Source of the DNA: a virus
Virus record (IMG/VR): IMGVR_UViG_3300036766_000876
Coordinates: 30,300-94,299 of that record
Strand: one strand, 5' to 3'
Length of the DNA: 64,000 nt
Positions 7,202-64,000 of the stretch are shown one piece after another (the stretch's first letter is position 1; each line of letters begins with the position of its first letter). The notes beneath the pieces were generated by a model. The model did not search any database. It was not told where the DNA came from and saw only the letters and a list, made by a program, of their open reading frames with translations. The position numbers were made by a program, and so were the translations under genes.

Positions 7202-9787
7202 CTACAGCTTCACCTTCTCCAGGCTCCCCCAGGACGCCCCCATCTCGACGTCCACCTCCAGGGGCACGAAGTCGGTGGCCCAAGGGAAGTTGAGCATCTC
7301 GTGGCGAGCGGCCAGCGCGGCGTCCTTCCACGTCTTCTTGGGAGCCACCAGCATGATGCTGTCGTGGATGGGGAGCACGAGCTCCGCGTCGATGGCCCCG
7401 GCCTCGATTCGGCTCACCACGCGGGCGATGGAGGCGACGCAGAAGTCGCTGGAGGTGCCCTGGATGGGGCTGTTGATGGCGCCGTTCTTGGCATTGGAGG
7501 CCGCGTACCGCCCCTCGTCGCTGTCGTCCCCGATCCGCCACAGCGGCCGCCACCGGGCCTTCTGGCCCTCCCAGATTGTCCAGCAGCCGCCCGCGGCCCG
7601 AGCGAAGGACACAGCCTCCCTCGTCCAGCGGCCGTACGCCTTGAACTCCCCGAAGATGGCCGCACGAATGGCCGCCGCCCTGTGCTCGTCGATGCCGAGC
7701 TCCGCGGCCAGGGAGCGGTCCGTCTTCCCGTAGGCGATGCCAAAGTTGTACGCCTTGGCGCCTGTGCGGTGGACCTTCGTCACCTGCTCCGGCTCGATGT
7801 TCCAGGCGAGCTTGCAGATGAGCTTCGCTGTGCCGAGGTGGAAATCCACGCCTGACTTGAACAGCGCGGCCATGGCCTCGTCCCGGCTGAGGAGCGCCGC
7901 AATCCGGAGCTCTAGCTGGCTGTAGTCGAGCTGGACGAGGACCTTCCCATGCGGCGCGCGGAAGCAGTCCCGGGCCCGCTTGCCGTCCGCGTCGTCCGCC
8001 CGTGGCAGGTTCTGGAGGTTGGGATTGCTGCACGACGTCCTTCCAGACCGCGCCCCGTCCAGGTGGATGCTGGGGCGGATCCTCCCGTCGTCGTCAACGT
8101 ACCGCGGCCAGTCGTCGGAGTAGCCCACGAGCTTCTGGTGGTGGCGGTACTCCAGGATGTACCCAGGGAGCGGGTGTTGCCCCTTGAGGAGGCTGAGCGC
8201 CTCCTCCCCAGTGCTCGGCGCCCCGCCCTCCGTCTTGAATGGCGGGTTGAGCCCGAGCTCGTCATACAGCACGCGCGCAAGCTGCTGCGGGCTGTCCACG
8301 TTGAGCGTCGTTCCACCAAGCGCGTACTGCTGCACCTTGTCGAAGGCCTCGTCGCGCGCCTGGCGAGCCATGTCCCCGAACAGGAGGCCCGCCTGCGCGT
8401 CGAAGGGCACACCCCACTCCTCCACGCGCTGGATGGCGACTGCCGCCGGCATCACGACGTTGTCGAGAATGGCCTGGCGCTCGGGGCTCCGCATCACCTC
8501 CAGGCTCAACCTCGACTCGATGCGCGCCGTGGAGAGCGCGTCCCGCGCGGCGTACCGCTGGCGGAGCTCCGGCTGGAGGAAGGCGAAGGCGATGGCCTTG
8601 GGGTTGGGGGCGTACTTGGCGATGTCGAAGCCCTGCCACTCCTCCAGGTCGATGTCGTTGAGGAAGCTGAACGAGCCTGTCCTCGCGGCGGCATCCTTTG
8701 CCTGCTGGGCGGCAGCCGTGGCGATGCGCAGACACACTGCGTCGAGCGCCTCGTCCGCCTCCCGCTTGTGGCCGCCCATCCCAACGAGCTCAGCCATGTC
8801 TGCCAGGTTGCCCGTCGCCTCCGGGTCCATCAGCTTCCGCTTCAGCCGCACATCGAAGGAGATGCCCCTCACGATGCAGCCGAGAGCCGACTTGAGCGCT
8901 GCCTGATCCACCTTGACGTTGGCCCCGCCCTTGGGCGCGCTGGCGTCCTCCAACAGGGAACGGAGAGGCGCGAACACGGCGGCATCGAGGAGCGCCTTCT
9001 CGCCCCAGACGAAGACTTCCTGTCCGCCAACAGGGGCCGCGGAGAGCTCCAGCAACTTGAAGTCGGGCCCCCACTTGCTCCCTGCGTACTCCAGGTCGAA
9101 CGCGAAGGAGTCCGCCGCCTTCAGGACACCAACAGCGGAGGCGCTGTCCTCCGGCGTCTCCACAACGGCTGCCTCCGCTGAGAGGTGCCACGGCTGCTGG
9201 ACGGCCGCCTTGAGCGCCCACCGGAGGTCCTCCTCGAAGTACTTCCACAGGAAGCGGTTGTGCCCACAGTCGCGTGGGTGGAGCACAAAGAAGACCGGCA
9301 CCGGCCTCCCGTCGTTCCACAGCCAGGTGTACGTCTTCCGCGCGTTGAGGGGCTGCACCCTGCGGCCCACAAAGGAGAGCGCCGCCTCCGCCCCGAGGAG
9401 GACGACGCGATCCGGCTGCGTCTCCCTCAGCGTCTCCGCCAGGTGGCTCCGGCACGCCAGGATGTCACGGTCCGTCGTCTCCACCTTGCCGAGGCACCGG
9501 ATGCCGCTGTCCAAGACGATGCCACCGTCCCACCAGCGGCGTACCAACGGGCGGAGCTTCGCGCTCGCGGCCCCAACGAACGGCCGCCCCTCCATGTCCT
9601 CCGCCCTACCCGGACGGTCCCCTACGACAAGGAGCTTTGGCCCCTCGGCAGGGAACACCTCCGGCATGAGCACCCGCTTGCGCCCGTCCGACTGAGCGCA
9701 GCGGTTGCAATCCTGGCCAACCTGGCGTGGCGTGGCGAGCTCGACCGCGAGGCGCGGTGGCGTCGGGTAGAGCTTGATGCGCCGCAC
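7202..9787 (-). CDS. DNA polymerase I with fused N-terminal uracil-DNA-glycosylase domain
   Basis: The 861-residue protein has three parts. Residues 1-195 form a family 4 UDG-like domain: four cysteines placed as an iron-sulfur site (C27, C30, C98, C112), motif GDRPGRAED (56-64), GRPFVG and an HP motif at 170-171. Residues about 225-430 form a 3'-5' exonuclease with DLE (D231, E233), NVKVD and YAARD motifs, so proofreading looks intact. The remainder is family A polymerase: DYSQLELR (motif A), RTGAKAYNFGIAYG (motif B) and HDS (motif C, usually HDE). Start is GTG at 9787, immediately after the upstream stop. Confidence 0.95.
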   Translation of the reverse strand: MRRIKLYPTPPRLAVELATPRQVGQDCNRCAQSDGRKRVLMPEVFPAEGPKLLVVGDRPGRAEDMEGRPFVGAASAKLRPLVRRWWDGGIVLDSGIRCLGKVETTDRDILACRSHLAETLRETQPDRVVLLGAEAALSFVGRRVQPLNARKTYTWLWNDGRPVPVFFVLHPRDCGHNRFLWKYFEEDLRWALKAAVQQPWHLSAEAAVVETPEDSASAVGVLKAADSFAFDLEYAGSKWGPDFKLLELSAAPVGGQEVFVWGEKALLDAAVFAPLRSLLEDASAPKGGANVKVDQAALKSALGCIVRGISFDVRLKRKLMDPEATGNLADMAELVGMGGHKREADEALDAVCLRIATAAAQQAKDAAARTGSFSFLNDIDLEEWQGFDIAKYAPNPKAIAFAFLQPELRQRYAARDALSTARIESRLSLEVMRSPERQAILDNVVMPAAVAIQRVEEWGVPFDAQAGLLFGDMARQARDEAFDKVQQYALGGTTLNVDSPQQLARVLYDELGLNPPFKTEGGAPSTGEEALSLLKGQHPLPGYILEYRHHQKLVGYSDDWPRYVDDDGRIRPSIHLDGARSGRTSCSNPNLQNLPRADDADGKRARDCFRAPHGKVLVQLDYSQLELRIAALLSRDEAMAALFKSGVDFHLGTAKLICKLAWNIEPEQVTKVHRTGAKAYNFGIAYGKTDRSLAAELGIDEHRAAAIRAAIFGEFKAYGRWTREAVSFARAAGGCWTIWEGQKARWRPLWRIGDDSDEGRYAASNAKNGAINSPIQGTSSDFCVASIARVVSRIEAGAIDAELVLPIHDSIMLVAPKKTWKDAALAARHEMLNFPWATDFVPLEVDVEMGASWGSLEKVKL

Positions 9788-26113: not shown

Positions 26114-26124
26114 GTGCTTCCTTT

Positions 26125-26168
26125 CGTTGGGTGCTGGATCGCACCACTCAGCCCGCGACCTCGTCGCG
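26125..26168 (-). promoter_or_regulatory. Tandem-hairpin 5' leader, copy E
   Basis: On the minus strand a 6-bp perfect stem CGCGAC/GTCGCG with loop GAG (26154-26168) is followed by GGCTGAGT, then GGTGC/GCACC with loop GATCCA (26130-26145), then CAACG and AAAGGAAG. It is the most upstream copy, next to the putative leftward promoter region. Confidence 0.7.
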
Positions 26169-26710
26169 CTGCTGGGTGGAACGGGCGAGCTCTCGCTCGC
26201 CGCTCCGCTCTCTCGCCGGTCTTCCCTCCGTGCCCATGCACGCCCGCTGCAACCAACCCGCCCTCTGGGAGCCCTCCCGATCGTCGCCTCTTCGGCGCCT
26301 CGCGGTTGTTGGGACTCTTCCCAGTTTTACCCGGCTTCTATGCGGAGACTTCGGTGCCGAGCTGGACGCGGGTAAAGCCCCCGTCCGGCTTGTCCGCCTC
26401 CCCGGATGCCTAGTGGGCCGGGAGATGCGGGCGCTCAGTGTTGTCGGCTCCGGGTCGCTTTGGGGGGAGGTCGCGTCCGGGGGGAGGTGGCCGTTTCCGG
26501 CCTGCCTCTACCGCCCTTCCGCTTCCCGCCGCCCGCCGCCGCCCGCCACCAACAACAAAGGAAGTATCCCTCCCAAAAAGAAAAAAAGCAAACAAACTCA
26601 AAAAATAAAATAGGGCCAAGAACGCAGGGTCTTAGGAGCCCATGTGGAGCCGTCGAGCTCACTGTCGTGTTGGGCGGGAAAAAGCCCACTGGCCGGGGCA
26701 AGGTACTGTC
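26169..26710. promoter_or_regulatory. Non-coding divergent control region with A-rich tract
   Basis: No convincing gene is visible in these 542 nt, which separate the leftward early block from the two rightward genes. It holds a 6-bp hairpin (26184-26201), an 8-bp inverted repeat TTTACCCG (26326-26333) and CGGGTAAA (26369-26376), GC-rich pyrimidine runs, and an A-rich tract (about 26549-26612) that is striking in this GC-rich genome. A TAAAAT at 26606-26611 could be a rightward -10 element. This is the best place in the window for promoters and possibly an origin; both are inference. Confidence 0.55.
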
Positions 26711-27172
26711 ATGCCTCTAAAACGCTCTCCGCAGCAGATAGGACGACTCTCCCGTCGTAAGGGTAAGGCCCATGAGCAAGCTGTCGCCCGGGCCCTCCGC
26801 GCTGTCTTCGGCGCAGGGGTGAAGCGCGGCTGGCAGGCGCGCGAGGGGGATGACGCTCCTGACATCGACGGCACCCCCTACTGGGTGGAGGCGAAGTGCG
26901 GCCGCCGGGTGAACTACCAGGCCGCCATGCAGCAGGTGGTGGACGCCAAGGAGAGCGCCCTCCGGAAGAAGGATCCGCGCGCCACACTCCCGCCGCTCGT
27001 CGTCGGGCGGGACGACAACGGGGAGGCCTTCGCGCTGCTCCGCTTCGAGGACTTCGTCAAGCTCCTGCGGACAAATGGCGAAGTGCCCGCAGCCGGCACA
27101 CCCGGAGTAGCTACTACCCCTGTGGCGCGGCCGGTCGAGGAGCTCACCCTGGCGCAGCCGCCAGGCCGGTGA
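26711..27172 (+). CDS. PDDEXK-family nuclease, Holliday-junction-resolvase-like
   Basis: The 153-residue protein has the catalytic pattern of PD-(D/E)XK nucleases: E22 in a KGKAHEQAVARALR helix, PDI with D51, then EAK with E60 and K62. The order matches small phage or archaeal resolvase-like nucleases that cut branched DNA before packaging. It is one of only three plus-strand genes. The ATG at 26711 follows AAGG and a GGTACTGT word; a longer in-frame start at 26642 is weaker. The last 40 residues are Pro/Ala-rich. Confidence 0.82.
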   Translation: MPLKRSPQQIGRLSRRKGKAHEQAVARALRAVFGAGVKRGWQAREGDDAPDIDGTPYWVEAKCGRRVNYQAAMQQVVDAKESALRKKDPRATLPPLVVGRDDNGEAFALLRFEDFVKLLRTNGEVPAAGTPGVATTPVARPVEELTLAQPPGR

Positions 27173-27507
27173 GCCCGCCCGTCGTCTCCCCTTCAGACGA
27201 CCCGCGCTGGGCGCTCTCCACGTCGCCCATCAGGAGCGACCGTTGGGAGCGCCGCCTGGCGGTGGGGGACCTCTCCTGCCACCTCCGCTGCGAGCGCGTC
27301 TTCAAGATGAAGGGGCGCTGGGGAGCGCGTGTCGGAAGGGGCAAGGACGTCTGGATGTGGGAGCTCATCCGCACCGCCTGGAGCATCTCCGCCGGCAGTG
27401 CGGTGTCCCTCGTCCAAGCGATGGAAGACGCCAACAGGGCCTTCGACGCAGCGGAGGCAGCCTTCCGGTTCAGTGGGCGGACGCCGGACTACCTCGACCA
27501 GGACTAG
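27169..27507 (+). CDS. Protein of unknown function
   Basis: The 112-residue frame begins at a GTG overlapping the nuclease stop (GTGA) and ends in TAG that overlaps the minus-strand o-spanin stop (CTAG). It has a basic N-terminal half with Trp residues and a helical C-terminal half (AMEDANRAFDAAEAAFRF). No family recognised. It is probably co-expressed with the nuclease. Confidence 0.7.
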   Translation: MSPPVVSPSDDPRWALSTSPIRSDRWERRLAVGDLSCHLRCERVFKMKGRWGARVGRGKDVWMWELIRTAWSISAGSAVSLVQAMEDANRAFDAAEAAFRFSGRTPDYLDQD

Positions 27508-27839
27508 CTCCCGGCGTCGAGGCTCCCAGCGTCCCGGGGGCCGCAGCGAATCCAGGCCTCGTCCTGCCAGCGCCGGGAGGCCTCCAGGGAGCCCGCGAGG
27601 CGCGCCCCAGGGCCAGGCAGCAGGCAGCCGGCGAAAACAGCAGGGCAGCCCGTCTCCGGCCCCTCAACGGGCACGGGGAGGATGGCCGGCGGGGGCTCCT
27701 TCAGGCACTCCCGGGCGACCTCGACCCGGACCGGCTCAGGGCACGGTCGGGCCGCCGAGCAGCCGGCGGAGGCGATCGCGCACAGCAGCAGGGTCCGCAC
27801 AGGCAGCGACGTCCTTCTCCAGAATCTCAATCTCGGCAT
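27504..27839 (-). CDS. Outer-membrane lipoprotein spanin subunit (Rz1-like)
   Basis: The 111-residue protein has a basic start, a hydrophobic stretch and a lipobox ending ASAGC at about residue 27, so it should be lipid-modified and anchored in the outer membrane. The mature part is Pro-rich, typical of o-spanins. It begins inside the i-spanin gene in another frame (about 100 nt overlap), a classic Rz/Rz1 arrangement. With the i-spanin it fuses inner and outer membranes at the end of lysis. Confidence 0.82.
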   Translation of the reverse strand: MPRLRFWRRTSLPVRTLLLCAIASAGCSAARPCPEPVRVEVARECLKEPPPAILPVPVEGPETGCPAVFAGCLLPGPGARLAGSLEASRRWQDEAWIRCGPRDAGSLDAGS

Positions 27840-28056
27840 GAAGCCTCCTCACGACGTCTTCCAGGCGAGCGCTGTCGTCCTTCCGGGCCGCCTCGGAGAG
27901 CTGAAGCCCTGTGGCATTGGCGTCCGCGTCGCGCCTGGCCTGGACCGTCTCGCCCTTGGATGTGGCGAGCTCCGCCTGGATGCCGCGGAGGCGCACCCAC
28001 ATGACGAGGGTCGCCACTGCGCCGGCCAAGCCGGTCGCGAGAAGGGCCCAGCTCAA
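27736..28056 (-). CDS. Inner-membrane spanin subunit (Rz-like)
   Basis: The 106-residue protein has one N-terminal transmembrane segment (LLATGLAGAVATLVMWVRL) followed by a long helical coiled-coil region, the usual i-spanin layout. The start is a TTG at 28056 overlapping the holin-like stop (TTGA). The o-spanin gene overlaps its 3' third. The longer frame upstream is inside the holin-like gene and is rejected. Confidence 0.8.
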   Translation of the reverse strand: MSWALLATGLAGAVATLVMWVRLRGIQAELATSKGETVQARRDADANATGLQLSEAARKDDSARLEDVVRRLHAEIEILEKDVAACADPAAVRDRLRRLLGGPTVP

Positions 28057-41977: not shown

Positions 41978-43186
41978 TTAGACTTCGATGTACGCATCCG
42001 GGTTGGACCCAGTGATGATCGGCTGGTCTGTCTGAGCCGAGAGCGCGCTGACGAGCCCCAGGCTTGTGCGGAGGACCTGGAGGGGCTTCACCACCACGTT
42101 CCCCGAGGGGCTCACGAACCCGTTGCCGGATGTGGCCAGCCCTGGTGTCGAGGCGAGCGCCGCCTGCGCGTCAACCAGAGCGAACGGAGCCCCTGGTGCC
42201 AGCGCGTTGACGTAGGCCACCACGGCAGCGCGCGCGAGGAGCGCTGCCTGAGCCACGTCCGCCCCGGCGACGAAGGTGAGCGCAAGCTGGAAGGCCTGAA
42301 GGATGACGGAGCCGACTGTCACCTGGACGAAGACGCCCGCAGGGCGTACGTCCGCGAGGGCGTTGAAGACGGTGGTGGCGAGGACCTGGCTCTGCGTCTC
42401 GTACCGGGGAGGAATCGTGCTGTACGTGGCGAACTGCTCCGTGAAGGAATCCGCCACAACAAGCTGAACCATCCGCGCCGGGCGCCCCAGCGCGTCGATG
42501 ACCTCGAACGCAGTGGCCGTCTGAACGCCTGGAACGCCGAGGGCTGCCTCCTCGATGGCGCCGAGCGTCCCGCGCCGCACAGTCGAGAAGAAGCGCCGGG
42601 CCCTGTCCTTTAGGCTGTCGTCCGTCTCGGCGTCGTCCGCGCCGGCTGTGGCGAACGGGTTGGTGACGGTGAGGTCGCTCGGCTGGCTGGTGATGGCCGT
42701 GGTGATGCTGGTGATGGTGCCGGACTTCACGTTCTGCGTGGCCCCAGCCAGCACGCTGCGCACGGCGCAGGTGACCGGGCCGGTGGTGGACACTGGGAAG
42801 ATGACCGACTCCGTGGTGACGAACTCGGTGCCGTCGGCCGTCTGGAGGCGGATGCCAGTGGGGATGGTGAATGTGACGAGCGTGGCCGTCGTGGTGCGGA
42901 ACTGGACGGACCCGAGGCTGGCCGCGGCTGGCTTCCTCACCAAGCCGTAGCGGTCAAACACGAGCCTGTCGAGGGCCGCCGCCTTGGCGCTGTTGAGGTA
43001 CAGGCCCGTCTCGACGCCAGCGAGCTGGCCGATGACTTGGTCGCCCACGGCTGCGATGGCTGCCACGAGGATGTTGGCGTCCGCGCCCTCGCGCTCGATG
43101 GCGTCGCGGCTCACCTTCGAGTTGCGAAGGAGCGCCTCGTCGCGAGCGACACGGAACAAGTCACTGAAGGTCGGGAAATCGGCCAT
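41978..43186 (-). CDS. Baseplate J-like protein (gpJ/gp47 type)
   Basis: The 402-residue protein is a good match to the Baseplate_J pattern: TGLYLNSAKAAALDRLVFDRYG, a PAAASLGSVQF strand, ADGTEFVTTESVIFPVST, a DDSLKDRARRFFSTVRRGTLGA helix and a late GVFVQVTVGSV strand. These proteins form the wedge core of contractile tails. It should pair with the gp25-like protein next door (43198-44334). Confidence 0.88.
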   Translation of the reverse strand: MADFPTFSDLFRVARDEALLRNSKVSRDAIEREGADANILVAAIAAVGDQVIGQLAGVETGLYLNSAKAAALDRLVFDRYGLVRKPAAASLGSVQFRTTTATLVTFTIPTGIRLQTADGTEFVTTESVIFPVSTTGPVTCAVRSVLAGATQNVKSGTITSITTAITSQPSDLTVTNPFATAGADDAETDDSLKDRARRFFSTVRRGTLGAIEEAALGVPGVQTATAFEVIDALGRPARMVQLVVADSFTEQFATYSTIPPRYETQSQVLATTVFNALADVRPAGVFVQVTVGSVILQAFQLALTFVAGADVAQAALLARAAVVAYVNALAPGAPFALVDAQAALASTPGLATSGNGFVSPSGNVVVKPLQVLRTSLGLVSALSAQTDQPIITGSNPDAYIEV

Positions 43187-56243: not shown

Positions 56244-57644
56244 TTACTGCCCGTGCTCAACGACCACGCAGCGCTTGTAGTACGCGCCGTCGCCAACAGC
56301 GCCGTCGGTGCGCACCGGCCACGCGCCGATGAACTTCCAGGTGGTGCTCACCATGTCCTGGAGCCGGTTCTGCGGCGCCCGGATGATGAGCTGGATGCGG
56401 TCGGTGAAGACGTCGATGCCGTTGTTGGAGATGCGGGGCTCGCCAACCTTGCCCTGCACGCCAGCCTCGGTGATGAGCGCCGCCAGGTCCATGTAGTACT
56501 CCATGACCAGGCCCTGACCCGTGAACAGCGGGCGGTGAATCGGGACGCCCGTGGTGAGCCCGGTGTTGAACAGCTCGCCCGCGAAGTTGTCGTCCTGGCT
56601 GAACGTCGCGGTGGAGCCGCCGATGACCGTCTCAGCGAGGGGGGCCTCGTTGTTCCGGATGAAGATGACGCCGAGCAGCACGCCGATCCCGAACTGCTTG
56701 TACATGTAGAAGTCGGGCAGCGACTGGAGCAGGCGCTGGAACTCGGCATCCCCGAAGATTTGCGCCTCGGAGGTGGGGTCCAGGTGGCAGTGGAAGTACC
56801 CGTCGATGTGCTCGGGCACGTTCTGCTGGCGGAGACGGGCCACGGCGGAGCGGCAGTCGGTCAGACGGAACAAGTCCGCGCTGCCCACGTCGTCCACCTT
56901 GTTGCCGCCACCGACGCGCACCAGCGACGTCTTCTTGTCGCTGATGACGTAGTCGCGGTCCACCACGGAGACGGCCGCGCCGTCGAGGGTGATGGTGCCA
57001 GGACCGACCTCGTCGCCGGCCGTGTCCGCCGCGAAGCCGGTCACGTTGCGCGAGACTTCAGCGCCCGCGAACAGCTTGATGGGCAGCGGGTTGCTGGCCG
57101 ACACGGGGTCGTACCGCACCGCCGAGCCCGCCACGAGGTCCGGCCGCCGCGCCCTGGTGAAGCCGTTGAGGCGCTTCACGCGGATGGTGTTGGTCGGACC
57201 CTGCGCGCCATCCGCCACGGTCCAGCCGGCGAGGCCCGCGTTGTACATGTTGTTGCGGACGAGCCCGTTCAGCGACTGTCCGGCCTGGAGCCCCACCTGC
57301 TGCGCGTTCCTGTAGAACAGGTTCGCGATGGCGGTGATGCTGGTCGGCATGTGGGTGTCGATGCTGTCCGCGAACTGCTGCGCGGTCGCCTCCCACTGCT
57401 CGCTGGGGAACGACTTGGGAGTCGGATCCGCCCCGGGCACCAGCGCGCGCTGGTTCTTCGGGATGAGGCCCGCTCCGGTGAACACCATCCGGTCACCGAC
57501 GTTGCCCGGCCACTGCACGGGCGAGGCCTCGCTGCGGAAGAGGAGCTTGGGAAAGAGCGCGTCGTGGAACGCGCGCTCCAGGGTTCCGTCCTGGACGAGA
57601 GCCCGGATGTCGGGCGACTGCGAGATGATGCTGAAATCTGCCAT
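56244..57644 (-). CDS. Major capsid protein (N4 gp56-like)
   Basis: The 466-residue protein has a RALVQDGTLERAFHDALFPKLLF opening, LANLFYRNAQQVG, a HLDPTSEAQIFGDAEFQRLLQ helix and a C-terminal FIGAWPVRTDGAVGDGAYYKRCVVVE region. These resemble N4 gp56-like major capsid proteins. The scaffolding-like gene lies just upstream and a strong terminator downstream. Start ATG at 57644. Confidence 0.83.
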   Translation of the reverse strand: MADFSIISQSPDIRALVQDGTLERAFHDALFPKLLFRSEASPVQWPGNVGDRMVFTGAGLIPKNQRALVPGADPTPKSFPSEQWEATAQQFADSIDTHMPTSITAIANLFYRNAQQVGLQAGQSLNGLVRNNMYNAGLAGWTVADGAQGPTNTIRVKRLNGFTRARRPDLVAGSAVRYDPVSASNPLPIKLFAGAEVSRNVTGFAADTAGDEVGPGTITLDGAAVSVVDRDYVISDKKTSLVRVGGGNKVDDVGSADLFRLTDCRSAVARLRQQNVPEHIDGYFHCHLDPTSEAQIFGDAEFQRLLQSLPDFYMYKQFGIGVLLGVIFIRNNEAPLAETVIGGSTATFSQDDNFAGELFNTGLTTGVPIHRPLFTGQGLVMEYYMDLAALITEAGVQGKVGEPRISNNGIDVFTDRIQLIIRAPQNRLQDMVSTTWKFIGAWPVRTDGAVGDGAYYKRCVVVEHGQ

Positions 57645-57695
57645 GGCGAGCGAGCCTCTGAGTTTGGACAGCGTTTGGGGAAAGGTGCTGCGTTC

Positions 57696-57725
57696 ACTAC
57701 AGCCTGCGCCGAACTACCACGTCAA
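57696..57725 (-). promoter_or_regulatory. Possible sigma-70-like promoter for major capsid gene
   Basis: On the minus strand TTGACG (57720-57725) and TGTAGT (57696-57701) are spaced 18 nt apart, close to host -35 and -10 consensus words. It lies in the 146-nt gap before the capsid gene, about 50 nt from the ATG. A stem (57736-57766) lies upstream. This is a match of short words only. Confidence 0.35.
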
Positions 57726-57735
57726 CACCCTTCAA

Positions 57736-57766
57736 TGCACGGGGGAGCTCATCGCCCCTCCGTGCA
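57736..57766 (-). other. Stem-loop between scaffold and capsid genes
   Basis: TGCACGG pairs with CCGTGCA, with further pairing of the inner G and C runs on the minus strand around a short loop. There is no U-run, so it is not a normal terminator. It may slow or process the transcript and help set the scaffold to capsid ratio. Confidence 0.5.
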
Positions 57767-57790
57767 AGTCCAACCGGGCCCTCGCGAGCT

Positions 57791-58654
57791 TCAGTGCGAG
57801 TGTGGGCTGATGCCCTTCTTCGCCAGGTGAGCCTGGTAATCCTGCGGGCTCATCTTGCGCACGTCCACAGCCCCGTTTGCGCCGTTCTGTGCTCGCACCG
57901 CGGCAGGGGCGGGAGGCTTCGGCGCGCCTCCAACTCCGGTCCCGGTGTTCGCCGGCACGACAGCCTCTCCGAAGAGCAGCGGCTTCGACTTCCGCAGCGT
58001 CTCGAAGTACGCCTTCTCGTCGAACTTCTCCGCCTCTTCCGGAGTCAGACGCTCGACCTCGCGGCTGAACAGGATGATGGCGTAGTCGATGTCCTGCACG
58101 CCCGTCTGCGCCGCGATGGTGCGGATGTGCATCTCCGCCCGCGCTGCGTCGGCGTCCGCCTGGAACTCGCGAGCCTTCCTCTGCCACTCACTGGCGGATG
58201 AGGCGTACCTGTTGCGCTCGTTGAGCACCTTCTCCAACTGCCGCTGGTACTTCCCTTCCTCGCGGCGCTGGTCCTTCGCATTCGCGAGGTCCCTGGCGGG
58301 GTCCTCGTTCGGCTCCTCGGCGGCCGGCTGCTGGGCCTGACGCTGAGGGACGACCTGCTGCTGTTGGGCCGCCGGAGTCTGCTTCAGCTTCGACAGCGCC
58401 TGCACCAGCTCCGTGTGCGAGCTGTAGCCGGCTGACTTGGCGAGCTCGTCCATGGCGCCTTGCTGGCCCCGGGCAAACTCCTCCTCCTTGATGCGCTTCA
58501 TCGCGGAGGTGGGAACGACGACGGTCTTCGGCTCAGACCTCTGCTGGACTGGATCCGCTGCCGCCTGCGCGGGTGGCGGGGTGCCCAGTGGGGCGCCACC
58601 GTCCGCGTGCTGCTCTGTTGGCATCGCTTCCTGCTGCTCAATTTGCTCAGGCAT
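57791..58654 (-). CDS. Scaffolding protein
   Basis: The 287-residue protein is acidic and helical, with Gln/Pro-rich disordered parts (AAQQQQVVPQRQAQQPAAEE), a central coiled coil (EEGKYQRQLEKVLNERNRYA) and a C-terminal helix with basic residues (MSPQDYQAHLAKKG). It sits directly before the capsid gene, as scaffolds usually do. It would guide procapsid assembly and then leave. Start ATG at 58654. Confidence 0.85.
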   Translation of the reverse strand: MPEQIEQQEAMPTEQHADGGAPLGTPPPAQAAADPVQQRSEPKTVVVPTSAMKRIKEEEFARGQQGAMDELAKSAGYSSHTELVQALSKLKQTPAAQQQQVVPQRQAQQPAAEEPNEDPARDLANAKDQRREEGKYQRQLEKVLNERNRYASSASEWQRKAREFQADADAARAEMHIRTIAAQTGVQDIDYAIILFSREVERLTPEEAEKFDEKAYFETLRKSKPLLFGEAVVPANTGTGVGGAPKPPAPAAVRAQNGANGAVDVRKMSPQDYQAHLAKKGISPHSH

Positions 58655-58860
58655 GTCTTCTTTCTCGGTACTGTCTCCGACTATTCACCGCCGTCGTCTG
58701 CGTGGTGAGGCCGAATCCAGCCTGGTGATTCCCGGTTGCCCGGTACTGTTGAACGGCGAGGGGCCAGTCGTGCGCCGCCCCAGTCGCGCTTCCCCACCTA
58801 CGGCAACGCCCCCTGACTGCGGGGGCGCGGTGAGGCCTTACTGTTGACCGCGGGAAGCGC
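58655..58860 (-). promoter_or_regulatory. Gap before scaffold with repeated TACTGT words and hairpin
   Basis: No gene is visible in these 206 nt. It holds two copies of CGGTACTGT (58666-58674, 58741-58749) and a related TACTGTTGACCG (58839-58850), and a 7-bp stem CGCCCCC/GGGGGCG (58807-58827). This may be a promoter or operator region for the scaffold and capsid genes. Confidence 0.4.
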
Positions 58861-59307
58861 TTACCCGGGGGCGAACTTGGTGGTGATGGCTTCAGCGGGC
58901 GCCGCGATGTAGCGGACGACCGCCCGAGTGACCGTGTTGGGGAAGGTGATGGTGGTGATGGTCCCCGTGCCGGTGAGGGCAGCGCCCGGAGCCGTGATGC
59001 CCTGAGCCGAGGCGATGCCGATTGCGGTGTTGGCGCCGCCGGGGGGGAGCAGCGGGGTCACAGAGCTGTCGCCAACCATGTACGTCCCGACCGACGCGGC
59101 GGTGCCGGAGGTCACGACGCGGGCTGACGCAACCATGAGCGCGCCGCCTGGGATGGTCACGGCCGCGGTCGCCGTGATGGTCCCGGTGTCGAACTCCTTC
59201 ACCTGGAGCATGTTGCCCAGGTCAACCTTCCGGAGCGCGTCCGGGAGCTGGTTCGGGTTGGCCTGCGTGAGGACAACCTTGGTGGTCTGCACGGCGGTGG
59301 TGGTCAT
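58861..59307 (-). CDS. Head structural or decoration protein
   Basis: The 148-residue protein is Thr/Ala/Gly-rich and strand-rich (GTITATAAVTIPGGALMVAS, GTGTITTITFPN). It ends before the scaffold gap and sits in the head block, which fits a decoration or head-fibre protein. No named family. Start ATG at 59307. Confidence 0.72.
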   Translation of the reverse strand: MTTTAVQTTKVVLTQANPNQLPDALRKVDLGNMLQVKEFDTGTITATAAVTIPGGALMVASARVVTSGTAASVGTYMVGDSSVTPLLPPGGANTAIGIASAQGITAPGAALTGTGTITTITFPNTVTRAVVRYIAAPAEAITTKFAPG

Positions 59308-59354
59308 GGCGGTTCAGCTCCTCTGGAAAGGCGGGACAGCGTGTGTGGGACTGC

Positions 59355-59732
59355 TCAGGCCTTCTCGGCCAGGAAAACGCGAACGGTTGTGACGGTTCCT
59401 GGAACGCGAGTCAAGGTGATGGCGGTGACTGGCACCGACTCGCTCATCAGGATCCAGTACGTGTCGAAGGGCACTGCCTGCGCTGCGCCGTCGGCGGAGG
59501 TGATGAGCGCCTTCACCTTGTTGTCCGCCTTGAGGATGACGATGTGCGCGTTGGTGACTCCGCCGAAGGCAACGGCCGCCGGGGCGTCCGCGTTCAGCGT
59601 CATCTCGGAAATCTGCTTGGCGTTGAGCGTCAGCGCCTCGTCGATGTTGGCCGTGACGGTGGGCGCGAAGCTGAGCGGCGCCGCCAGGGGCAAGGCCTGG
59701 TAGCTGCCGTTCAGCTTGAAGGAGTCGCTCAT
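59355..59732 (-). CDS. Small head-region structural protein
   Basis: The 125-residue protein is beta-rich (GVTNAHIVILKADNKVKALIT, VTAITLTRVPGTVTTVRVFLAE). It lies in the head block between two other small virion-like genes. A long GC stem (59756-59792) lies just upstream and may slow entry of ribosomes or protect the transcript. No family named. Confidence 0.72.
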   Translation of the reverse strand: MSDSFKLNGSYQALPLAAPLSFAPTVTANIDEALTLNAKQISEMTLNADAPAAVAFGGVTNAHIVILKADNKVKALITSADGAAQAVPFDTYWILMSESVPVTAITLTRVPGTVTTVRVFLAEKA

Positions 59733-59755
59733 GGCTCAGTTGGAAGAGGTGGCGC

Positions 59756-59792
59756 CGCCCCGCGGGGGAGGGGAAGGGGGGGCCGCGGGGCG
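59756..59792 (-). other. GC-rich stem upstream of small head gene
   Basis: On the minus strand CGCCCCGCGG pairs with CCGCGGGGCG (59783-59792 with 59756-59765), separated by a C-rich loop. There is no U-run. It may act as a stability or processing element between two head genes. Confidence 0.5.
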
Positions 59793-59803
59793 CGCCGAGA
59801 GGG

Positions 59804-59998
59804 CTACTTGGACCCGAGCGGGCCCAGCGTGAAGGGCGAAGGATCCACGCCCTGCGGCAGGGACGACTGGGGGAGCTTCGACATCGTGTTGGTGTCCGCG
59901 GTGACGGCGTCCTTGTACTGGCCCGCTGCCTTGTCCACCGCTGACATGATGTCTCCGCTTTCGACGGCTCCCTGCAAGGGGGCCAGTGGGTCGCTCAT
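59804..59998 (-). CDS. Small head-region protein
   Basis: The 64-residue protein has an N-terminal helix (AVESGDIMSAVDKAAGQYKD) and a Pro/Leu-rich end. It starts at ATG 59998 within the head block. No family recognised; like its neighbours it may be a minor internal or capsid protein. Confidence 0.62.
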   Translation of the reverse strand: MSDPLAPLQGAVESGDIMSAVDKAAGQYKDAVTADTNTMSKLPQSSLPQGVDPSPFTLGPLGSK

Positions 59999-60040
59999 GG
60001 TGCTTGTGCTCCAGGTGCTGCGTGTGAGGTTGGGTGCTGC

Positions 60041-60211
60041 TTACTTCCAGGCGATGGGGGTGGGGCTGTTCTTCACCGGGGCATCCTTCACCCCGCTCGG
60101 GCCCCACGACTCCTTGTAGCGGCCGTACCTGGCGTCGAAGATTTCATCCGAGGTCTTGGTGCCCTCGGACATGGGCTTGCCGAACTCCTCGCTGATTGGC
60201 TTGTCGGGCAT
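60041..60211 (-). CDS. Small head-region protein
   Basis: This frame encodes 56 residues from ATG 60211 to TAA at 60041. It is hydrophilic (MPDKPISEEFGKPMSEG, then RYGRYKESWGP). It fills the space between two other small genes, so it is likely real. No family recognised; it may be a small virion protein. Confidence 0.6.
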   Translation of the reverse strand: MPDKPISEEFGKPMSEGTKTSDEIFDARYGRYKESWGPSGVKDAPVKNSPTPIAWK

Positions 60212-60241
60212 GGCGTTCTCGCTTTGCTGGTGGTGGCGGAG

Positions 60242-60472
60242 CTACCCGCCGACGGTGAAGGGGGCCTTGTTGTCCGACACCGGAGCTCCGGCGGAGGGCG
60301 TCTTCATCTTGGCCGGCTCGTACTTCCCGGTCGGCATGCCGGCTCCCTTGGGGATGCCTGCGGTGGCGTCGTACGCCGGGCCCTCGACGAAGCCGGCGGG
60401 GTCCGTGCCAATCTTCTCTGCCTGGCTGCGCGGGGTGCGCCCGCTCTGCGGTCCAACGGGTCCCTTGAACAT
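60242..60472 (-). CDS. Small Pro/Gly-rich head-region protein
   Basis: The 76-residue protein (MFKGPVGPQSGRTPRSQAEK) is rich in Gly, Pro, Lys and Ala and probably disordered. The ATG at 60472 has GGAG before it and overlaps nothing. The longer in-frame start would overlap the next gene. It may be a small virion-associated or internal protein. Confidence 0.65.
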   Translation of the reverse strand: MFKGPVGPQSGRTPRSQAEKIGTDPAGFVEGPAYDATAGIPKGAGMPTGKYEPAKMKTPSAGAPVSDNKAPFTVGG

Positions 60473-60474
60473 GG

Positions 60475-60825
60475 TCACTCCTGGAGCTTGAACGGCGAGG
60501 AATCGGCGGGCCTGTCGGAGTCCCACTTGGACTCGTAGCCCTTGACCTTGTCCTGCATGTTGCCGTCGAGGTCAACCTTGTCCGCCGGCCGCGGGTCGCC
60601 CTGGCCGCCGATGCCGCACGGGCTGTTGCTCGGGTTCTGCGTCAGCGCCTTGAGGCCCGGGTCGAGCGAGTCAATCATCGGCTTCGGGGGCTCGGGGTAG
60701 CGCATGTCCATGGGCCACGGCTGGCCAGGGGAGATGTTGTTGACGCGCTCTGCGTAGCGCTCCTGCTCGCGCTTGTACGCTTCCTGTGCTCCCAGCTCGA
60801 TGATGCGGATCGTCACGCGCGCCAT
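60475..60825 (-). CDS. Small head-region protein
   Basis: The 116-residue protein starts with a helix (VTIRIIELGAQEAYKREQER) and has a MRYPEPPKPMID loop and a charged C-terminus. It is the first gene of its transcript to the left of the divergent response-regulator gene. The ATG at 60825 is used; the longer frame runs into the divergent promoter gap. No family named. Confidence 0.68.
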   Translation of the reverse strand: MARVTIRIIELGAQEAYKREQERYAERVNNISPGQPWPMDMRYPEPPKPMIDSLDPGLKALTQNPSNSPCGIGGQGDPRPADKVDLDGNMQDKVKGYESKWDSDRPADSSPFKLQE

Positions 60826-60865
60826 GGTAGAGCACACGGCCCCTGCGTGCAACAGTCTCCCCCCT

Positions 60866-61222
60866 GTGGCCCTCATCGTTTGCGTGGACGACGACCTCTC
60901 CGTTGCGCAGATGGTGGCGGACGTCGTTCGCTTCCTGAAACACCAGCCTGTCGTCGAGACGAGCTCGCTCACCGCCATCACGAAGTGGCTGCGCGAGCCG
61001 CGCGTTGGGGCGGTGCTCGCTGACTACCTCATGCCGCAGATGGACGGCCTGGAGATGCTGGAGGTGTTCCGCGAGGCGCGCCCGGACGTGCGGCGACTCC
61101 TCATCACAGCGGCTCCACAGGAGGAGCCAGTGCGGCAGGCAGAGCGGGACGGCTTGGTGGGGATGGTCATTGCGAAGCCACCCAGCATCGGGGACATACG
61201 CATGGCGCTCGCCTGGCTCTAG
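60866..61222 (+). CDS. Stand-alone CheY-like response regulator receiver
   Basis: The 118-residue protein is a receiver domain with all key residues: acidic DD at 8-10, the phosphorylated Asp at 53 in LADYLMPQMDG, a Thr at about 81 in LLITAAP and Lys at 104 in IAKPP. It has no output domain. It is a plus-strand gene within a minus-strand block. A phage receiver could intercept or redirect host two-component signalling, or hold a phosphate from a host kinase. Start is GTG at 60866. Confidence 0.88.
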   Translation: MALIVCVDDDLSVAQMVADVVRFLKHQPVVETSSLTAITKWLREPRVGAVLADYLMPQMDGLEMLEVFREARPDVRRLLITAAPQEEPVRQAERDGLVGMVIAKPPSIGDIRMALAWL

Positions 61223-61701
61223 GGGCGCTTCTTCCGAGCGGCGCTCATCGCCTGGACGTCACTCATCGCCCTAGTGATGTCCTGGCGGAACACGCGCTCC
61301 AGGCTGCCGAGCTTCTCGTCCAGCAAGCTCGACTGCTCCTTCAGGGAGGCGCGGTAGAACTCGCTCTGCTTCTCGAAGCGGTTGTCGAGGTTGGTGCGAA
61401 TCTCGATGACGGTCCCGCGGATGCCCTCCGCCAAGGTGTACGTCTGCTTCATCTCCGCCTGGAGGTTGATGATGGCCCTGTCGAGGTCCGCGATGGCGCG
61501 CTCCGACTTCTCGAAGCGCTCGTCGTGCTCCTTGAGCTCCGCGCGGACGTCCTCCTTGTCCTTGTCCTCGCGCTCGACGGTGCGACTCCCGAGCCAGCGA
61601 ACGATGCCAAAGCCGGCGGCCATGAGCTGGGCCACCACACCGGCCCCGACGAGCAGGTACAGCTTGGAGAGCCCATCTCCGCCGTCAGCGACGGGGTCCA
61701 C
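61219..61701 (-). CDS. Membrane-anchored coiled-coil protein
   Basis: The 160-residue protein has one hydrophobic segment near the start (LYLLVGAGVVAQLMAAGFGIV) and then a long Lys/Glu/Leu coiled coil. It resembles an inner-membrane anchored rod. Its stop overlaps the response-regulator stop (CTAG). It might be a membrane partner or sensor-like protein, but nothing links it to the receiver besides position. Start GTG at 61701. Confidence 0.7.
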   Translation of the reverse strand: MDPVADGGDGLSKLYLLVGAGVVAQLMAAGFGIVRWLGSRTVEREDKDKEDVRAELKEHDERFEKSERAIADLDRAIINLQAEMKQTYTLAEGIRGTVIEIRTNLDNRFEKQSEFYRASLKEQSSLLDEKLGSLERVFRQDITRAMSDVQAMSAARKKRP

Positions 61702-61704
61702 GGC

Positions 61705-61992
61705 TCAAGCTCCCTGCTTGCTGAGCTCCGCGGGGATGTGAAGGGCATCGACGATTCGCTCCACGGAGCGGGCCATCCGTCGCTGCTCGACCTGCATCTC
61801 CAACATCAGCTTCTCACCGCGCATGGTCCGCTCGTCCACATGGCGCACCGTCGCGCGCAGCTCACCGAGCTCCTCGCTGAGTTTGCTCATGCCGTGCCTC
61901 ATCTCCCTGAAGTCGTCCTCCAGCGTAGCTACACGCCGTTGGAGTTGGGTGATGGCGGATGGGCGAACGGGCGGAGTCTTCTTCTTGGCCAT
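61705..61992 (-). CDS. Small coiled-coil protein
   Basis: The 95-residue protein has a Lys-rich start and a long heptad-like helix (LQRRVATLEDDFREMRHG). It lies directly upstream of the membrane coiled-coil gene with a 3-nt gap. The two may form a complex. No family recognised. Start ATG at 61992. Confidence 0.68.
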   Translation of the reverse strand: MAKKKTPPVRPSAITQLQRRVATLEDDFREMRHGMSKLSEELGELRATVRHVDERTMRGEKLMLEMQVEQRRMARSVERIVDALHIPAELSKQGA

Positions 61993-62022
61993 CAGTGCCT
62001 CGAACGGTAGCAGAGCGAGCCG

Positions 62023-62904
62023 CTACTTGTTGACGTAGACCTTCTCGCCGGAGGCGCTGGTGTAGTACCGGCCGCCCTTGGGGCCGGTCTGGACGGACTT
62101 GGAGTCCGCGCTCTTGGAAGCACCATCCTTGTCCTTGTCGGCTTTTTCAGAAAGTCGATGCGCTTCCTTGCTCAGCACAGAAGCATCGCCATCCCCTCGC
62201 TGGTGCGCGGCAGCGGCGTTGGTATGCTTCTGTGCAGCGACAACATGGAGAGCACCTTTTTGTTCACGGTGCTCCGCCGCCTTGGCCATGTGAAAGTCTG
62301 CCTTCTCGCTGGAACCCTTGGGGCCGGTCTGGACGGACTTGTCGGAGCCCTTGTCCTTGGGGGCCTTCTCGCCAGTGGGGCCCTCCCGCTTCTCCTTGAG
62401 CGCGGCCAGATGCGCGTCCGCCTTTTTGAACGCGCTGTCGCTCTTGGCTTTCGCTTCCGCTGCATGCGCAGTGTGCTCCGCCGCAGTCTTCGCGTCGCCG
62501 TTTTTGGTGGAATCCGCCGCGAGGTCCTTGTGCACACGCGCTGCCTCGTCGTACTTCGCCGCGTTGTCGCTGTGGAAGCGGTACATGCCCTTCAGGTCCG
62601 ACTCGCTGTCGGAGGCCTTTGGGCTGTCCTTGTCACCAGAGCCACTGGACTCGTCTTTGATGGTGATGCGGTGGCTCTTCTCGCTCTTGCTCGCCGCAAC
62701 AGAGTCTTTCCTGTCCTGCTCAACGTGACTTCCCATCGCGGAGTCCATGGCCTTTGCGAGGGTGCTTTGGCCATCCGAGCCCTTGTCGCGCTTGGCTTGG
62801 GCGCGAGCACGGATTTCGTGAAACTCCTTTAGCTGTGCGATGAACGCAGGGTTTTTCTCCTTCAGAAGCGCCTTCGCCATCATGTCGTACTTATTTTTTG
62901 CCAT
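62023..62904 (-). CDS. Lys/Ala/Ser/Asp-rich repetitive protein
   Basis: The 293-residue protein is highly charged and helical, with two copies of the KSVQTGPKG word (about residues 188 and 268). The last part (GGRYYTSASGEKVYVNK) is a pattern that ends several phage virion proteins. A 26-bp exact direct repeat (62075-62100 and 62315-62340) underlies the repeated peptide. It may be an internal or ejected virion protein. Composition differs from most neighbours. Confidence 0.68.
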   Translation of the reverse strand: MAKNKYDMMAKALLKEKNPAFIAQLKEFHEIRARAQAKRDKGSDGQSTLAKAMDSAMGSHVEQDRKDSVAASKSEKSHRITIKDESSGSGDKDSPKASDSESDLKGMYRFHSDNAAKYDEAARVHKDLAADSTKNGDAKTAAEHTAHAAEAKAKSDSAFKKADAHLAALKEKREGPTGEKAPKDKGSDKSVQTGPKGSSEKADFHMAKAAEHREQKGALHVVAAQKHTNAAAAHQRGDGDASVLSKEAHRLSEKADKDKDGASKSADSKSVQTGPKGGRYYTSASGEKVYVNK

Positions 62905-62934
62905 GGTTTTCTCCTTGCCCGGTGACGGGCGTCT

Positions 62935-63870
62935 TTACCCCGTCGCCATCGGCGCTGGAGCCGGCGCTGCTGCTCCCGCCACCTCTCCGCCGAGCTTCTT
63001 GAAGACGTGCGCCACCACCACCCACGGGTCCGGGTAGCTCTCCCAGTGAGGCTTCACGGCCTCTTCGGCCTTCAGCCACATGTCCGGGTCCGAGGCCCAG
63101 CTCGGGGCCGCGCCCTCCTGCGGAGGCTCCGACTGGAGCGCCGCCTGGATGGCCGGGTCCGGCTGAGCGGCCGCCTCCTGCGCGGCCTCGTCCAGCATCG
63201 CCTTGAGCTCGTCCCCGCCCTCTGCCCCGGGAGCCGGAGCCGCGGCGGGAGGCGGAACGGAACCCTTGGCCATCGCAGGGACTGCCTTCGGAGCAGCCGA
63301 GATTGCACCGCCTGCTGCCGGGGGAGGCGCCTTGGCCGCTGCCCTGGCCTGGATCGCCTTCGCAGCAGCGCCGGGCTTCGACATGTCTGAGGGAGCCCCT
63401 TCGTCTGGCATCTCCGGAGGGGGCGCAATCTCCAGCCCCTTCACCGCGCCGCCAATCATCCGGTACAGGTACGCCGTCACCACGGCCGGCTCGTCGAACA
63501 TGTCTTCCCCAGCGCCTCCGAGGCCAACGGCCTCCGCGGCCTCAGCCCACTTCGCGGCGTCCTCCGCGTAGGCGGGCACGTCCTCCGGCCCGGTCGAGGC
63601 CACGCCAGCGATGACGTCCTCCAGCTCCTGGTCCTTCGCGTCCTCCGCGGCCTGAGCAGCCTCCTCGACGAGCTCGTGGAGGTGGACCTCGCTCTCCTCC
63701 TCGGGGCCCTGCTCCATGTCCGGGTGCGGCGGCTTGGCCATCGGCGCCCTCACTGGCGCGGCCGGCGCCTTCGCCTGCGCTCGCTTCTGCGCGAGCATCC
63801 CGGAGACGGCTGGTGGAGCTGCGGTCCTCTTGGCGAAGGCGAGGATGTTCTGCTTGGGCATCACGGGCAT
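62935..63870 (-). CDS. Ala/Pro/Glu-rich head-region protein
   Basis: The 311-residue protein is rich in Ala, Pro and Glu with long low-complexity stretches, plus two short more ordered regions (about residues 120-145 and 275-295). It is the rightmost complete gene in the window and belongs to the head block. Scaffold-like or internal virion roles are possible, but no family is recognised. Start ATG at 63870. Confidence 0.65.
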   Translation of the reverse strand: MPVMPKQNILAFAKRTAAPPAVSGMLAQKRAQAKAPAAPVRAPMAKPPHPDMEQGPEEESEVHLHELVEEAAQAAEDAKDQELEDVIAGVASTGPEDVPAYAEDAAKWAEAAEAVGLGGAGEDMFDEPAVVTAYLYRMIGGAVKGLEIAPPPEMPDEGAPSDMSKPGAAAKAIQARAAAKAPPPAAGGAISAAPKAVPAMAKGSVPPPAAAPAPGAEGGDELKAMLDEAAQEAAAQPDPAIQAALQSEPPQEGAAPSWASDPDMWLKAEEAVKPHWESYPDPWVVVAHVFKKLGGEVAGAAAPAPAPMATG

Positions 63871-63926
63871 CTGGTTCTCCGGAGGTAGCTGTCAAGCAAG
63901 GCGGTCGAGGAATACCACACTACGTT

Positions 63927-64000
63927 TCAAGGCACCCCAGCGTGCTTCTTGGCGAGGAGCTTCACGGTGGCGAGGCACGCCCTTCTGCGAGAGCTTCTGC
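63927..64000 (-). CDS. 3' end of a gene entering from the right edge
   Basis: A minus-strand frame from the edge reads about 24 codons and ends in a TGA at 63927 (last residues AKKHAGVP). It would lie 56 nt upstream of the next gene. Other frames are also open for similar lengths, so the choice is weak. Confidence 0.3.
   Translation of the reverse strand, partial: RSSRRRACLATVKLLAKKHAGVP

Follow-up and report, generated by a model that had tools for sequence, protein, structure and literature searches.

What might a phage do with a CheY-like receiver domain that stands alone among its head genes? We addressed this question for a locus in a window of 64,000 nucleotides, which comprises bases 30300-94299 of a 94,299-bp IMG/VR virus record (IMGVR_UViG_3300036766_000876).

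The receiver gene and its product

On the plus strand of the window an uninterrupted frame extends from a GTG at 60866 to a TAG at 61222 and, by translation, encodes a protein of 118 amino acids. This frame and the features around it are as follows:

60866..61222, plus strand: stand-alone CheY-like receiver (single-domain response regulator), identified by PF00072, codon score and structural model
60824..60865, plus strand: possible N-terminal extension of 14 residues (132 amino acids in total) if translation began at the in-frame ATG 60824; this stretch overlaps the divergent gene at its start
60475..60825, minus strand: divergent neighbour, a 116-amino-acid protein of unknown function (codon score +37.8)
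61219..61701, minus strand: convergent neighbour, 160 amino acids, with a hydrophobic N-terminus and a coiled-coil-like region (by eye)
57791..58654, minus strand: probable scaffold-like protein, its gene upstream of that for the capsid; weakly similar to what relatives encode at this position
56244..57644, minus strand: major capsid protein (phrog_1357), which anchors the head module

With a model of codon use trained on the contig, positions 60866-61219 scored +31, and all of the remaining frames there scored negatively. Among ORFs of at least 60 amino acids, this model scored 69 on the minus strand of the contig above 20 and two on the plus strand, the second of which (42555-42950) is nested in a minus-strand gene that is much stronger. 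The receiver is thus the sole credible plus-strand gene across the ~94 kb contig, and the ORF is therefore real. An earlier note on this DNA had remarked that the gene is inverted relative to the virion genes; the inversion in fact holds relative to essentially the whole contig.

The 14-residue extension had a negative codon score and reads as non-coding, and the first residues of the extended form were modelled by AlphaFold2 as disordered, with low pLDDT. The GTG at 60866 is therefore the better guess for the start and the ATG at 60824 the less likely one. Note that no good ribosome-binding-site-like sequence precedes either codon. The gene is packed tightly against both of its neighbours: its stop codon and that of the convergent gene overlap by 4 nt, and it lies at most 40 bp from the divergent gene. 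Given this spacing, and because a scan of positions 60400-61500 recognised neither a sigma-70-like promoter (a type that may not be that of the host) nor a terminator, the suggestion in the earlier note that the gene has its own promoter is unsupported as written.

The protein matches PF00072 with 54.1 bits, compared to a curated cut-off of 30.2 (E 2.1e-14), over profile positions 1-109 of 111, and PF00072 is the only profile that it matches. A full receiver active site comprises two acidic residues, the acceptor Asp, a Thr or Ser, and a Lys, and a protein lacking it is a pseudo-receiver (PMC12632262). All five residues are present (D8, D9, D53, T81 and K104), as the earlier note had claimed, and the protein is thus not a pseudo-receiver. 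In an alignment with cellular receivers D8, D9, D53, K104 and P105 are invariant; T81 was taken directly from the translation rather than from the alignment. Moreover, the residues at T+1 (A82), D+4 (P57) and D+8 (G61) fit catalytically competent receivers by published criteria (PMC12632262). The stop lies 14 residues past K104, so that nothing follows the receiver fold, consistent with the earlier description of a stand-alone protein devoid of an output domain.

The residue at K-3 is V101. In 86% of receivers this position holds Tyr or Phe, as part of the Tyr-Thr switch; the other 14% have neither, and a second allosteric route reaches the alpha1/alpha5 surface (PMC12632262). Because V101 is not aromatic, the case for Tyr-Thr switched output of the CheY type is weakened, and such output appears less likely for this protein than simple phosphotransfer.

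An AlphaFold2 model built with an alignment that included 32 viral receivers had a pLDDT of 90.6 and a (βα)5 fold in which strands and helices alternate as expected, whereas prediction without an alignment gave a poor model (pLDDT 52). The matches of the former in Foldseek were CheY, Spo0F, PorX and HD-GYP receivers, at E values of about 1e-7.

Position in the phage genome

The receiver gene sits within the head-gene (late) module. Tail sheath and tape-measure genes are also located downstream of it on the minus strand, and genes elsewhere on the contig encode a family A DNA polymerase, a DnaB-like helicase, RecA and thymidylate kinase. A portal-like gene is found at the left end of the contig, and relatives have this gene upstream of that for the capsid protein. 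The contig is thus probably a near-complete genome in circularly permuted form, the ends of which (G000:C1:1-6427 and window 56244-64000) are adjacent; with the ends joined according to the gene order of relatives, the receiver gene is located between the portal and scaffold genes. Profile searches of the contig found no integrase, no resolvase, no histidine kinase ATPase (HATPase_c) and no Hpt domain. The phage therefore looks like a lytic myovirus, from soil, with no detected kinase of its own. No tRNA was found on the contig.

Several other features of the contig are recorded here in their own right. The DNA polymerase (window 7202-9787, minus strand, 861-amino-acid ORF) carries an N-terminal uracil-DNA-glycosylase superfamily domain, an unusual combination. 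The phage encodes a peptide deformylase (L015:6438-6992, minus strand, 148.5 bits), and a TET/JBP-like 2-oxoglutarate oxygenase domain at G000:C1:29413-30249 (L016:9413-10249, minus strand) suggests modified DNA bases. A Hint (intein-type) domain occurs in a 902-amino-acid ORF at G000:C1:18894-21602 (minus strand), part of which was read as L016:1-1602. A 621-amino-acid head-region protein (L015:63-1928, minus strand) resembles an ADP-ribosyltransferase family very weakly, with a match below the cut-off (E 0.0055). Finally, window 26114-28052 comprises ~2 kb with no confident gene between two minus-strand blocks; the plus-strand ORFs that overlap it have no Pfam match.

Related capsid proteins (44-49% identity) are encoded by 16 IMG/VR contigs, several of which are partial; none of the 16 contains a PF00072 match, and the genes beside the receiver have no match within them. 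Because neither the divergent nor the convergent neighbour has detectable relatives in IMG/VR, an empty insertion site could not be demonstrated. Of three marks of a moron, the gene has one, in that it is an extra late-region gene missing from these 16 relatives (several partial), and lacks another, deviating composition: its GC content is 66.7%, compared to 67.1% for the phage, and its codon use is phage-like under the contig-trained model. As to the third, a promoter and terminator belonging to the gene itself, the scan recognised none, but it covered sigma-70-like promoters and the host may use others. The earlier note had named unexpressed host-derived debris as one finding that would refute it. 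Since the gene lies inside the head module and has phage-like composition, it is not host debris by position.

We found no close relatives of the receiver in the phage collection or by peptide patterns in IMG/VR. There were 13 weak cellular matches, and the nearest cellular receivers found are ~30-40% identical to the window protein. No donor lineage can be named, because the best matches had identities of only 40% and 35% (~200 genomes searched in each of two phyla).

Lone receivers in other phages

A DNA pattern for D-x-x-M-P-x-M-D-G-x-E/D, run on 2.9 million IMG/VR contigs, returned 103 stretches. Counting as stand-alone only complete ORFs of at most 180 amino acids with DD and KP, we identified with this one motif at least 46 such receivers, which group into 21 clusters at 45% identity. 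All 32 of those placed in an alignment match PF00072. For three of the five clusters with several members, the loci that were checked have phage hallmark genes nearby: a P2-type portal and a terminase (L061), a terminase and a tape measure, with the receiver on the opposite strand (L126), and tail fibre genes, again with the receiver on the other strand (L130). The genes tested from the other two clusters gave no phage hallmark match. BFVD contains further phage receivers. The earlier note had called intact receivers rare in phage genomes; this holds as a matter of proportion, and the 16 capsid relatives agree with it, but with at least 46 cases in IMG/VR the gene is not exceptional. Lone receivers are uncommon yet recurrent among phages, and the window gene is another case of a kind already known.

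Matches to CheY in short unannotated records of the phage collection, or in very large bacterial-looking ones, were left uncounted. Note that many records titled as phage (for example OR846792.1 and CAKLQH020000001.1) match CheY yet look bacterial; they are probably contamination and would inflate counts. Pseudomonas phage Komp_PAO1_1 was dropped as a case because its CheY match is antisense to an annotated gene on the opposite strand. A reading of the window receiver as part of a defence system was also set aside, there being no PADLOC match for it; other viral receivers do have PADLOC matches, but weak ones that reflect shared receiver domains only.

Tyr or Phe occupies K-3 in 12 of the 21 viral clusters and is absent in nine. 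This share falls short of the published 86% (binomial p = 0.001) but does not differ significantly from that among receivers in larger viral ORFs from the same scan (Fisher p = 0.41). In four of the five multi-member clusters the residue at K-3 is aliphatic. The apparently lower share of Tyr or Phe among lone viral receivers is a lead, not a result.

Possible roles and comparison with known systems

The explanation that we tentatively prefer is that this intact single-domain response regulator is carried in the late (head) region as a moron-like accessory gene, the product of which takes phosphoryl groups from host kinases and acts as a sink or decoy. In particular, D53 would accept phosphoryl groups from at least one host histidine kinase or from a small phosphodonor, for example acetyl phosphate, and the host's own regulators would as a result be less phosphorylated during infection. 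The phosphodonor would have to be host-derived, because neither HATPase_c nor Hpt was found on the contig. Expression of the receiver would probably occur outside the late phase, because late minus-strand transcription should run antisense through the gene. It is the combination of intact chemistry with the lack of an output domain, of a switch residue and of a contig-encoded kinase that favours a sink or decoy; the sequence is also consistent with the proposal in the earlier note that the protein drains phosphate or competes with a host regulator. Unrelated phages repeatedly carry lone receivers, and host kinases have been shown to be phage targets through an unrelated protein, PIT4 (PMC10714779). 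Set against a sink are the absence of a recognised promoter in the scanned interval or of a ribosome-binding site at either start, and the second alpha1/alpha5 route, through which a non-aromatic K-3 residue does not exclude output.

From what we infer, a sink or decoy ranks above three other explanations. The next, possible but less probable, is that the receiver, once phosphorylated, binds a protein of the host or of the phage and so switches it, for example one concerned with surface polysaccharide, motility or lysis timing. Protein contact is the usual mode of single-domain response regulators (CheY, DivK and Myxococcus EpsW), and the fold and catalytic residues of the window protein are complete. 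Many intact lone receivers bind a target instead of acting as sinks, as CheY does, and EpsW~P stimulates the phosphoglycosyl transferase EpsZ (PMC12802240). Against such contact, Val at K-3 means that the Tyr-Thr coupling pathway of most receivers is missing, and no conserved neighbour presents itself as a partner, since relatives were found for neither adjoining gene. That the receiver acts as a Spo0F-like shuttle, passing phosphoryl groups from a host kinase to a host Hpt or regulator so that the signal is rerouted rather than drained, appears quite improbable. Spo0F, which likewise has no output domain, is among the closest solved structures, but CheY and HD-GYP receivers match equally and likeness of fold is no guide to role; an Hpt domain, moreover, is not found on the contig. 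Just as improbable is a captured host gene that persists as a functionless passenger or as debris. The 16 capsid relatives without a receiver, the adjoining genes without known relatives, and the unrecognised promoter, terminator and ribosome-binding site would fit such a passenger. The five catalytic residues, however, are kept although the closest cellular receivers found are so distant, GC content and codon use match the phage, the gene ends tight against both neighbours, and other phages also have lone receivers; the codon use, the packing and the preserved residues together are why host debris was not our first choice.

A sink or decoy would matter in that phages could quiet host sensing simply, with one small protein, and the 46 lone-receiver genes include some in more tractable phages, for example those with a P2-type portal and terminase. 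We consider it unlikely, though less so than a shuttle or a passenger, that lone receivers, their chemistry intact but the Tyr-Thr switch often broken, form a recurrent undescribed anti-signalling class that drains host kinases during infection, of which the window gene would be one, expressed independently and counter to the late operon. According to the 2023 paper on PIT4, no phage protein that directly interacts with a two-component system had been reported before it (PMC10714779). In the literature we found little relevant on phage-encoded response regulators, and no phage-encoded receiver that had been biochemically tested; phage lone receivers are thus a known kind that is experimentally almost untouched.

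The window receiver shares with CheY, Spo0F, DivK and EpsW the receiver fold, the five catalytic residues and the lack of an output domain. Unlike these cellular proteins it is encoded by a phage, and unlike CheY-type receivers it has Val rather than Tyr or Phe at K-3. It shares ~23-28% identity with CheY and Spo0F in the structural alignment and, compared to CheY, has one extra residue before K104, which is present too in a cellular receiver (L045).

Among phages, gp48 of Alteromonas phage vB_AmeP_R8W (QPI17708.1; 153 amino acids) is likewise a lone receiver, with DD, D, S and K, and is encoded in the lysis/packaging region of an isolated phage. It has been described as a PhoB DNA-binding regulator (PMC8228385), but the gene (MW043865.1, 44435-44896; L040:3013-3474) encodes no recognisable DNA-binding domain and has no room for one. 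The two proteins are 18% identical; gp48, unlike the window receiver, has a C-terminal tail of ~35 residues and Tyr at K-3, and its gene is on the strand of its neighbours. The lone receivers from IMG/VR (for example L061, L126 and L130) are similarly encoded near packaging or tail genes and are about 118-170 amino acids long, and those of L126 and L130, like the window gene, are on the strand opposite to the virion genes checked. The best of them is ~30% identical to the window protein, and the phage families differ, as the portal and terminase of L061 illustrate. PIT4, a protein of Pseudomonas phage LSL4, targets two-component systems of the host (PMC10714779); it binds histidine kinase domains and, unlike the window receiver, contains no known conserved domain.
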